A stretch of DNA of 43,503 nt, taken from contig JAPLDY010000089.1 in the NCBI GenBank assembly GCA_026391595.1, forward strand, positions 1-43,503, written 5' to 3'. Numbering within the stretch: the stretch's first letter is position 1; each line of letters starts with the position of its first letter. A model generated the notes under the pieces. That model saw only the letters and a list, made by a program, of their open reading frames with translations. It did not search any database and was not told the DNA's origin. This document shows positions 16,100-23,169 of this stretch, one piece after another. Source of the DNA: Bacteroidia bacterium. Its GTDB lineage: Bacteria; Bacteroidota; Bacteroidia; Bacteroidales; VadinHA17. Both the position numbers and the translations under genes were made by a program.

Positions 16100-16202
16100 C
16101 TCTGTGACTCTCTGTGGTTCTCTGTGTCACTCTGTGTAAGTTTTTTTTGGTTTACAAGAACTTACACAGAGGAAATATTGAGAATCACAGAGATACACAG
16201 AG
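16100..16202. repeat. Head-to-head decamer repeat element A (gene-less)
   Basis: The left arm (16100-16140) is four decamers of the form CTCTGTGnnn followed by G, with a T-run after it. The right arm (16161-16202) reads, in inverse, CTCTGTGTAT, CTCTGTGATT, the degenerate CTCAATATTTC and CTCTGTGTAA. The spacer is 20 bases and T-rich. The transcript could fold into a long imperfect hairpin. It lies between the divergent fucI and lipA genes; their -7 boxes flank it on both sides. Confidence 0.75.
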
Positions 16203-21630: not shown

Positions 21631-21665
21631 CAAATTGACGGGTCAGTTTATATTCAAAGAAAAGA

Positions 21666-21707
21666 GTTACACAGAGGAAATCCGGAGGACCACAGAGTGA
21701 CACAGAG
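21666..21707. repeat. Decamer repeat arm, degenerate type, 3' of the GxxExxY gene
   Basis: In inverse it reads CTCTGTGTCA, CTCTGTGGTC, the degenerate CTCCGGATTTC and CTCTGTGTAA. It ends one base before the stop codon of the GxxExxY gene. Its partner arm is at 22099-22139; together they are element B. Confidence 0.75.
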
Positions 21708-21708
21708 G

Positions 21709-22080
21709 CTATAAACGGAATCTTCTGATACCATTTTTAAGCACCGTTACATTAAAGTTAATCAACAAACCAACAGATTTATTTGAGAATTTCATATATG
21801 TAAGAATCTGTGCTTCATGTACCGGATTAAATTCATCAACGACTTTCAACTCAAGAACAATTGAATTTTCAACAAGGATGTCGATCCGGTAACCACAATC
21901 CAGTCTTACATCCTTGTATACTACCGGGGTTGGCTGTTGTCTATTAATACTGAGACCTGCTTTTATCAATTCAAAAGAAAGGCATTCTTCATATGCGGAT
22001 TCAAGCAATCCGGGACCAAGTGCTTTGTGTACTTCAATTGCACATCCTATAATTCTTTGTGTTATATCATTTATTTCCAT
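21709..22080 (-). CDS. GxxExxY-family protein (PD-(D/E)xK-like fold)
   Basis: This 123-residue protein shows the name-giving motif G24-L-L-E27-S-A-Y30 and, further on, a nuclease-like core D67 (in Y-R-I-D-I-L-V) with E77-L-K79, then QILTYMK. The family is placed with PDDEXK nucleases, but no activity is established. Length is normal, and the reading frame is intact. It is enclosed on both sides by decamer repeat arms: one ends a single base after its stop codon, the other begins 19 bases before its start. No promoter box is seen, so it may be expressed from purE-side or barrel-gene transcripts. Confidence 0.85.
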   Translation of the reverse strand: MEINDITQRIIGCAIEVHKALGPGLLESAYEECLSFELIKAGLSINRQQPTPVVYKDVRLDCGYRIDILVENSIVLELKVVDEFNPVHEAQILTYMKFSNKSVGLLINFNVTVLKNGIRRFRL

Positions 22081-22098
22081 ATCAATGGTATTTGTTTT

Positions 22099-22139
22099 CT
22101 CTGTGTCACTCTGTGGTTCTCTGTGTCTCTCTGTGTAAG
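22099..22139. repeat. Decamer repeat arm, regular type, 5' of the GxxExxY gene
   Basis: CTCTGTGTCA, CTCTGTGGTT, CTCTGTGTCT, CTCTGTGTAA and a final G, then a T-run. It is nearly identical to the left arms of the two gene-less elements at 16100 and 23065. With 21666-21707 it brackets the GxxExxY gene in inverted orientation. Confidence 0.75.
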
Positions 22140-22176
22140 TTTTTAATAATTCTTTCTTTACGGTTAATGGATTTCA

Positions 22177-22995
22177 TCATTTTATCTTGAATATCAGCGA
22201 TACACTTGAGGTTATGCCAAGTTTTTCATGTGTGGCAAAGCTCAGGTCGATTTGAAGAGACTTCAGAAGATAACCCAATCCGAAGGTGAAGGATGTATTT
22301 TCGCTGCTGAAACCTCCACGAAGCCGTAGTTTCTTCACTGCTTCATATTCAAAACCTGTTCTCACGATGAGCTTCCCTCCCGGACTCATTTCAGCTTCTG
22401 CGCCGGCAAATAGCACTTTGCTTAGCACAATGCCCGCGCCAGCCCGAATTGATGAAGGCATCATTGCTTTCCTCAACGAGTTGGGAACAGGATTGAAAAT
22501 ATGCAGGCCGATGTTTACCTTTTCAGAAGGTTTGAAAAATAGCCCGGCTTCATAAGTAACTGATTGATAATTATCATAATCACCTGAAGTTTTTTCAAGG
22601 AAATAATCAATCTGGATCCCTGCTGCGAAATTCTTACCAAGTTGCATTCCACAGGCAAGACCGGCCATCGATCTCCTGAAATCAGAATACCCGAAATGTG
22701 AATAGCATGCCCCAATGGAAGTTTTTCCAGCAGGTATAACCAGCCCGGCGGTACGTGTCCCGAGTTCCCACATATTGAACCTGTTCTCGTAATTGATGCC
22801 GGCAATGTATGAAGTGTTAAATGCAAGAAGAGCCTGGTTACTGAATGAAGGCCAAAAGCCGGTTTTCATTATGCAAACCGATCCCATTCCTGCTTCACCC
22901 GCCCCGGCATAATTCAAATACGGATTACCACCGGAGGCGTTGTAAGAAAGAAAAACAGCAAATAATGAAACAATTATCCTGTGCAGCGAGTACAA
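22177..22995 (-). CDS. PorV/PorQ-like outer-membrane beta-barrel protein
   Basis: This 272-residue protein has a signal peptide (IIVSLFAVFLSYNASG) and then amphipathic strands with the FadL-like start N-Y-A-G-A-G-E-A-G-M-G-S, as in PorV/PorQ and related barrel proteins of type IX secretion; PorV and PorQ themselves help attach cargo. The small size and lack of other Por genes nearby leave the specific role open. The start is the TTG at 22995: an in-frame TAG lies 18 bases upstream, and no ATG lies before the signal peptide. It is upstream of the GxxExxY and HhH-barrel genes on the same strand. Confidence 0.55.
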   Translation of the reverse strand: MYSLHRIIVSLFAVFLSYNASGGNPYLNYAGAGEAGMGSVCIMKTGFWPSFSNQALLAFNTSYIAGINYENRFNMWELGTRTAGLVIPAGKTSIGACYSHFGYSDFRRSMAGLACGMQLGKNFAAGIQIDYFLEKTSGDYDNYQSVTYEAGLFFKPSEKVNIGLHIFNPVPNSLRKAMMPSSIRAGAGIVLSKVLFAGAEAEMSPGGKLIVRTGFEYEAVKKLRLRGGFSSENTSFTFGLGYLLKSLQIDLSFATHEKLGITSSVSLIFKIK

Positions 22996-23064
22996 GTGTT
23001 TCAGTATAAACTACTAAGATACAAAAAAAATCAATCCGGATGGCAGGATTAATCTATTTTATTC

Positions 23065-23161
23065 CTCTGTGTCACTCTGTGGTCCTCTGTGTCACTCTGT
23101 GTAAGTTTTTTATTCTTTTATTACACAGAGGAAATCCGGAGAAACACAGAGCTCCACAGAG
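23065..23161. repeat. Head-to-head decamer repeat element C (gene-less)
   Basis: The left arm (23065-23105) has four regular decamers CTCTGTGnnn plus G; the right arm (23121-23161), in inverse, reads CTCTGTGGAG, CTCTGTGTTT, the degenerate CTCCGGATTTC and CTCTGTGTAA. The spacer is 15 bases, T-rich. It lies 8 bases past the purE stop and upstream of the PorV-like gene, so its hairpin may end purE transcription. Confidence 0.75.
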
Positions 23162-23169
23162 AAGAACGA

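Follow-up and report, generated by a model that had tools for sequence, protein, structure and literature searches.

The window analysed here, a 43,503-nucleotide stretch of a contig from a Bacteroidia bacterium, contains a small GxxExxY gene lying between two inverted arrays of a short repeat. This arrangement raises the question of whether the arrays, hereafter called arms, belong to the gene and what the unit they form might do. GxxExxY is a widespread family for which we found no assigned function, and cognate repeats would give it a role that can be tested.

The element in the window

The two arms consist of tandem CTCTGTGnnn units with GTAAG or GTAAC ends and are placed in inverted orientation around the gene, giving an element of approximately 430-480 bp (Table 1). 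The pattern CTCTGTGN3CTCTGTG had 13 matches in the window (≤2 mismatches), compared to 0.20 expected from 100 shuffles. The initial annotation had located the arms, the gene and two gene-less arm pairs correctly. Its distance of a single base between the downstream arm and the stop codon was also right, but 18 bases rather than 19 separate the other arm from the ATG, and the 11-base degenerate unit reads CTC-N4-TTTC and not CTC-N5-TTTC. Judged from their sequence, the ORFs flanking the first gene-less pair are presumably fucose isomerase-like and lipA-like.

Table 1. Coordinates of the gene, the arms and related features in the window.
Feature	Position	Strand	Remarks
Degenerate arm	21666..21707	-	CTCTGTGTCACTCTGTGGTCCTCCGGATTTCCTCTGTGTAAC when read along the minus strand; lies downstream of the gene; from the sequence
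GxxExxY gene, 123 aa	21709..22080	-	PF13366 / TIGR04256; PD-(D/E)xK nuclease fold, predicted from profiles and model
Regular arm	22099..22139	+	Built of four CTCTGTGnnn units; lies upstream of the gene
Candidate remnant of an older CTTTGCG-type arm	22140..22180		TTTACGGTTAATGG; by eye; nesting is clearer in relative L267
Gene-less convergent arm pair	16100..16202		Between fucose isomerase-like and lipA-like ORFs
Gene-less convergent arm pair	23065..23161		Between the 272-aa ORF and a purE-like ORF; presence varies in relatives

The GxxExxY protein

The window protein scored 152.7 bits with the TIGR04256 profile (cut-off 35) and 146.7 bits with PF13366 (cut-off 22). PF13366 was its sole Pfam match; the Pfam search returned no transposase family and no HUH Y1 tyrosine enzyme domain. 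The predicted structure (pLDDT 94.6) begins with a helix spanning residues 3-21 of the model, and its top structural matches were mostly nucleases of the PD-(D/E)xK fold. Residues E27, D67, E77, K79 and Q91 were invariant across 39 aligned sequences, so that the window protein combines, by model and alignment, the PD-(D/E)xK fold with the catalytic E/D...ExK residues. The GxxExxY genes are under purifying selection (median dN/dS 0.10 over 143 pairs).

A search for sequence relatives in the PDB gave a single match with an E-value of 0.22, and PHROGs gave a weak match only. No phage carriage was seen in four single-protein scans of viral contigs, in which the queries reached close relatives only. 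Eight plasmid records carried a GxxExxY gene; among the three that were read, two had clear inverted arrays and one (L302) was less clean.

Arms elsewhere in the window genome

In the 3.64-Mb genome from which the window derives, CTCTGTGN3CTCTGTG was found 95 times (≤1 mismatch) and the reversed pattern twice. A census covering the window and 23 fetched regions, which together include every contig with an exact match, resolved into 30 clusters: the two arms of the gene copy, 27 gene-less pairs (18 convergent and 9 divergent) and a solitary array. The gene-less pairs thus occur in two layouts, and the 9 divergent ones are arranged like the gene copy itself, only a few bases forming the loop between their arms. 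The order described earlier for gene-less copies, a regular arm followed by a degenerate one, applies to both pairs in the window but fails genome-wide, as 9 of the 27 pairs are divergent. A gene-less state therefore need not be a circular permutation of the gene copy, and the argument that joining the ends of the gene copy into a circle would produce the gene-less layout was rejected for this genome. Nor is the spacing of units fixed at 10 bp, being mostly 8-11 in relatives and 9 in those arms of Planctomycetota that were inspected, so the suggestion that all units face the same side of the helix is not general.

The window genome has one other PF13366 gene (C256:212-556). This gene, too, lies between arms of the same orientation, but theirs are CTTTGTG/CTTAGTG-type units, which suggests that the type of arm depends on the protein rather than on the host genome.

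Repeats flanking GxxExxY genes in other genomes

We collected 196 unique GxxExxY genes from family-genome matches as listed, automatic Bacteroidota loci, 20 picked regions (mostly of multi-copy genomes) and the 80 closest relatives. Clades too distant for the single-protein contig scan are represented through PF13366 matches in the genomes drawn. Flanks of 150 bp were available for 184 genes, of which 175, from 126 genome labels, remained after a filter of 100-160 aa; related loci are not independent, and p values of the flank tests are therefore nominal. In a test free of any motif, the reverse-complemented upstream flank was compared with the downstream flank, the control being 105 neighbour genes, at most one from each locus. 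The median inverted-repeat score was 34 for the 175 loci versus 16 for the neighbour genes (Mann-Whitney U, nominal p 4.5e-34), and 131/175 loci exceeded the control 95th percentile. When direct repeats were also counted, 146/175 loci and 10/105 neighbour genes lay above the control 95th percentiles, leaving 29 loci with neither kind of repeat above control. Two CTYNGYG units within 45 bp downstream of the gene were found in the expected orientation at 75 loci and in the opposite one at 12; the corresponding upstream counts were 64 and 9 of the 175.

The record titles of the relatives name Bacteroidota, Ignavibacteria, Calditrichota, Planctomycetota, Acidobacteria, Nitrospiraceae, Nitrospinota and proteobacterial groups. 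Inspection by eye of the flanks of 53 loci, among them most of the non-Bacteroidota loci, showed arms at many but not all. The design of a gene between arms was also present in Bacteroides finegoldii and Bernardetia. In the loci where distances could be taken (n = 134), the arms lay at a median of 5 bp after the stop codon and 20 bp before the start codon; some left arms of Planctomycetota, 27 bp long, adjoin the ATG directly. On one Nitrospinota contig (L228), the nearest arms are oppositely oriented, and upstream and downstream flank are long direct repeats of each other (score 229).

The association of arms and gene is real and general: GxxExxY relatives in several phyla carry arms, and in this respect the link passes the check that the initial annotation had set for it. 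That the pattern is chance or low-complexity sequence, as short and repetitive units might suggest, has practically no probability left in view of the shuffle, reversed-pattern and neighbour-gene controls, which all speak against it.

Co-occurrence of repeats and gene

Among 148 Bacteroidota genomes drawn, 75 contained PF13366 and 21 contained CTCTGTGN3CTCTGTG; the reversed pattern was found in none. All 21 genomes with CTCTGTG pairs held a PF13366 gene (20/20 without the window genome, Fisher p 2.5e-7), so that also at the level of whole genomes the arms are not distributed at random relative to the gene. Another type, CTTTGCGN3CTTTGCG, was accompanied by PF13366 in 13 of 16 genomes (p 0.008), the reversed pattern occurring in 4 genomes. 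The three exceptions (G126, G184 and G188) had one match each and no detected gene, and repeats were likewise present with no PF13366 gene detected in G032 and G055; these repeat-without-gene genomes are mostly draft assemblies. In 23 other genomes of the window genus, a triple CTNNGTG pattern and PF13366 were both present in 10, the gene only in 3, the pattern only in 2 and neither in 8 (p 0.01). The triple pattern was absent from the other 55 genomes of the family drawn, several of which have PF13366 genes with other arm types.

Another transposase, for instance of the Y1/RAYT type, might move the arms with the GxxExxY gene as a passenger. The window genome has one full copy of Y1_Tnp and one fragment, and Y1_Tnp, present in 106 of the 148 genomes, correlates with CTCTGTG pairs (19/20, p 0.007). 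This association is weaker than that of PF13366 and is missing for CTTTGCG (p 0.27), the presence of Y1_Tnp correlates with that of PF13366 itself (p 0.0025), and in the whole-genome pattern search neither contig with a Y1_Tnp match in the window genome had a CTCTGTG-pair match. A passenger gene would also leave the protein-specific repeats unexplained, and we consider this reading highly improbable.

In three places, CTCTGTG pairs recurred as direct tandem repeats, with approximately 113-137 bp per repeat (G202:C1:1681125-1681541, G094:C24:31701-32191 and G201:C19:42532-42779).

Empty and filled orthologous sites

The intergenic gap that holds the element in the window, bounded by a 650-aa and a 272-aa ORF, was compared in 35 species including that of the window, one further region (L298) being dropped at a contig edge. 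Ten sites were empty, with up to approximately 75 bp and no arms. A GxxExxY gene was present at 14 sites, 11 with CTCTGTG and 3 with CTTTGCG arms, and 8 sites had arms without an intact gene, either as arms only or in decayed form. L284, with a gap of about 160 bp and no arms, was not classed. The remaining two sites (L294 and L274; window counterpart 21634-22176) might have been taken for GxxExxY genes with odd arms, a reading that was rejected: no GxxExxY gene was found there, and the gene present is a 23S_rRNA_IVP (PF05635, 119 aa) within its own inverted TTGTTC/TTCATTC arrays. The design of a small gene with cognate arms may thus extend beyond GxxExxY.

Remnants of the gene were sought by tblastn in the nine gaps that were arms-only or, as in L284, arm-free, and matches to GxxExxY were obtained in five. 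Two were clear (L287, 87% over 31 aa; L283, 65% over 23 aa); the three weak ones (L272, L275 and L284) may be due to chance. Some CTCTGTG elements, as in L267, appeared by eye to lie inside the remnants of CTTTGCG arms, and from such nesting newer elements may replace older ones.

The gap between the fucI and lipA genes, which in the window contains a gene-less pair, was compared in 10 relatives. A window-like CTCTGTG pair was present in two (L256 and L257), an ATCAGCG-type pair in G026 (L253), and no arms in L254, L255, L258 and L263; the arms of L259 and L261 were split by other inserts, and L262 was not classed. Gene-less pairs thus also differ between species in presence and type. Both gaps provide the pairs of empty and filled sites expected for the proposed element. 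Inspection by eye of the orthologous gaps and of the Schlesneria pairs described below revealed neither a target-site duplication nor exact insertion points, the intergenic DNA being too diverged between species.

A homing-type process would read these sites differently: the nuclease would cut the gene-less palindrome and host recombination would copy the gene in, the arms being the target and not the transposed unit. The divergent gene-less pairs, with the layout of the gene copy and a short loop, would be suitable targets, and the apparent nesting of a window-type element in older arm remnants at the same site in L267 is in line with this. The 10 of 35 orthologous sites without both gene and arms indicate, however, that the arms come or go with the gene, and a gene copy that retains both arms would stay a target unless the joint of the arms matters. 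We regard homing as unlikely, and favour movement of arms and gene as one unit.

Two further features were observed in the relatives. Dispersed repeats with C/G runs split arm pairs (L259 and L261) or fill a neighbouring gap in several of them. In the gap before the purE-like ORF (22996-23169 in the window; L292, L297, L269 and others), several gene-less pairs stood, by eye, directly after a terminator-like hairpin with a T-run.

Derivatives and cassette arrays in Planctomycetota

The Schlesneria genome (L220, G261) contained 32 arm-pattern matches (≤2 mismatches), mostly identical to CTTCGTGctCTTCGTGtcCTTCGTGGT, and five Planctomycetota copies had identical 27-bp arms. Three divergent pairs 56 bp apart (L327, L328 and L333) retain the first and last bases of the gene, and two pairs approximately 150-170 bp apart (L326 and L335) retain more of its sequence. 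Judged from these retained ends, the Schlesneria arm pairs are internal deletions of the gene-bearing form. Flanking sequence is common to L327, L328, L333 and L336, and these may have multiplied within a larger repeat.

An attC-like palindrome of approximately 108 bp, GCCGAAC...GTTCGGC, had 41 matches in Schlesneria and 25 in SZAS-6 (L230, G262), often spaced 450-600 bp apart. From their sequence, these are apparently integron cassette arrays that carry GxxExxY elements as cassettes. Two SZAS-6 copies (L343 and L344) are 99.3% identical over 428 bp. Their identity was at first considered a sign of self-mobility, a view withdrawn since attC-like arrays surround both copies, which are most simply cassette duplications.

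Elements within attC-like arrays in two genomes could point to the gene as a circular cassette that is excised with its ends joined. The repeated boundary in these arrays is, however, the attC-like site and not the arm, and the window genome has gene-less pairs in both layouts; we therefore give such a cassette very little probability.

Arms follow the protein

The type of repeat unit differs between protein clades. Over 15143 pairs of genes from different genomes, protein identity correlated with arm similarity (r 0.485; best of 500 permutations 0.089), and the fraction of pairs with similar arms (score ≥28) rose from 2.6% at 30-40% protein identity to 34.7% at 60-70% and 74.5% at 70-80%. Gene pairs within one genome at 30-40% identity shared arms in 2.9% of 34 cases, like pairs from different genomes. 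At 68 loci with both a sibling in the same genome and a closer protein elsewhere, the arms were nearer to those of the distant relative in 53 and to those of the sibling in 14. Arm similarity follows protein similarity and not the host genome, which shows the arms to be passed on together with the gene; the correlation of arms with protein could by itself reflect such joint inheritance.

Covariation of single residues with single bases was examined in 88 loci. Among the 181 unique genes for which 110 bp of flank was available on each side, these were the ones with at least two CTYNGYG units per arm, clades with other units being excluded; regions L345-L362 contributed only to the gene scan for this set. 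Left and right arms agreed at unit bases 3, 4 and 6 in 95, 78 and 98% of the 88 loci (expected 50, 46 and 72%). Residue 7 of the protein was Thr in 38 loci, 37 of which had C at unit base 3. With Ser at this residue, base 3 was T in 29 loci and C in 7, and with Ala, Phe, Gly or Ile it was T in 13 of 13; one locus was gapped here.

The effect of residue 7 on base 3 in an identity-matched comparison was 0.541, against a mean of 0.002 (s.d. 0.079) over 94 columns and a next best value of 0.187. In a tree-aware test of correlated change, with the tree built without residues 2-8, the likelihood ratio was 40.2, the next of 100 columns reaching 17.9 (95th percentile 14.2, median 4.7); the baseline of this test is inflated, as three control pairings gave ratios of 10.6 to 18.5. 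Parsimony required at least 11 changes of the residue-7 class and at least 15 of base 3, so that one ancestral event is insufficient. The pairing of residue 4 with base 4 (Asn with T, Asp with C) had the highest value of all 94 columns when protein identity was matched (0.576), and contacts of Asn with adenine and of Asp with cytosine are common. It was no outlier in the tree test (likelihood ratio 17.4, others reaching 18.5), and a reading of base 4 by residue 4 is accordingly suggestive only; residue 7 with base 4 also gave a raised ratio of 18.5. No clear residue was found for base 6 in the covariation test of the 88 loci.

The pairing of residue 7 with base 3 suggests that the protein recognises the unit directly, and the target is more likely DNA than RNA, as gene-less copies occur in both layouts. 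Covariation is compatible with any DNA-binding role, including one in which the arms are operators or terminators for autoregulation of the protein that travel with the gene by recombination, gene-less copies having spread otherwise. The closeness of arms to start and stop codons would fit such a role. It accords poorly with 27 gene-less pairs in one genome, with their variation in presence and type at one orthologous site, with the internal-deletion derivatives and with the conserved nuclease site, and regulation as the function of the arms appears improbable to us.

A proposed two-part element

We put at roughly 60% the probability that gene and arms form a REP/RAYT-like two-part selfish element, whose protein reads its own arms, cuts, and spreads both arm-gene-arm copies and gene-less pairs. 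The minimal element would consist of a repeat arm, the nuclease gene and an inverted repeat arm. The protein would recognise the repeat units of its own arms, with residue 7 and perhaps residue 4 of the N-terminal helix reading the variable bases, and its PD-(D/E)xK active site would make DNA breaks that let arm-gene-arm copies insert into or leave intergenic DNA. Gene-less pairs would be inserted and lost likewise, with the protein acting in trans. Binding, cleavage and the driving of movement by this protein and not by another enzyme are what we infer: the fold of the model and the conserved residues suggest cutting, and the site polymorphism points to movement.

With the link to GxxExxY, a group of repeats scattered through intergenic DNA is accounted for, and the clades are a naturally occurring set of protein/DNA specificity pairs for which a recognition residue is predicted. 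Should the nuclease be what moves the arms, the unit would be a mobile element whose enzyme class, PD-(D/E)xK, is not known to work alone in transposition. Tentatively, a new class of transposable element can be envisaged, possible but not the outcome we would count on: a lone nuclease of approximately 120 residues with a residue-to-base code for 7-bp units would move itself and gene-less pairs, would have diversified into protein/repeat pairs in several phyla, and would share its design with the unrelated 23S_rRNA_IVP.

Relation to known systems

Insertion sequences and their MITEs have inverted ends around one gene and internally deleted derivatives. The present elements resemble them in the terminal inverted repeats that bracket the gene, the internal deletions and the empty and filled orthologous sites, but differ in that the encoded protein matches no Pfam transposase family, no target duplication was found and the arms are arrays. 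Free-standing homing endonuclease genes, which include PD-(D/E)xK ones such as I-Ssp6803I, are likewise solitary small nuclease genes of patchy distribution, but are unlike the elements described here, which have arms on both sides, gene-less arm pairs and empty sites without arms. Compared to the Cas4, RecB and lambda-exonuclease nucleases, the GxxExxY protein is shorter and has cognate repeats.

REP or BIME repeats together with RAYT (TnpAREP) genes form the REPtrons (PMC8266576, PMC3733652, PMC2817692, PMC3116915). The likeness lies in a small gene between inverted short repeats, in dispersed intergenic gene-less pairs and in a repeat type that matches the helper; in the window genome, too, inverted repeats flank the gene and also occur without it. 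In REPtrons the helper is a HUH tyrosine enzyme and the repeats are GTAG-tagged hairpins, whereas here the helper is a PD-(D/E)xK protein and the arms are tandem 7-mers with mostly 8-11 bp spacing. The REP/RAYT-like system with a PD-(D/E)xK helper proposed in the initial annotation is upheld in that the arms belong to the gene (146/175 loci, 21/21 genomes, empty and filled sites); its circle and phasing arguments had to be given up.

The open-access full text contained no account linking GxxExxY to cognate repeats; GxxExxY is mentioned in two papers, in passing only, and PF13366 in one, and longer repeat strings appeared only in unrelated animal papers. Within the open-access literature searched, the element of gene plus arms is undescribed. 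For the 7-mer CTCTGTG, the one paper found concerns capsule loci of Bacteroides fragilis (PMC3090145). Families of short intergenic repeats, with short direct repeats and palindromes, are also described as multicopy sequences of Geobacter bemidjiensis, in passages that, unlike the window system, name no helper gene (PMC2996986); going by these passages, the Geobacter sequences may include relatives of the repeats described here.
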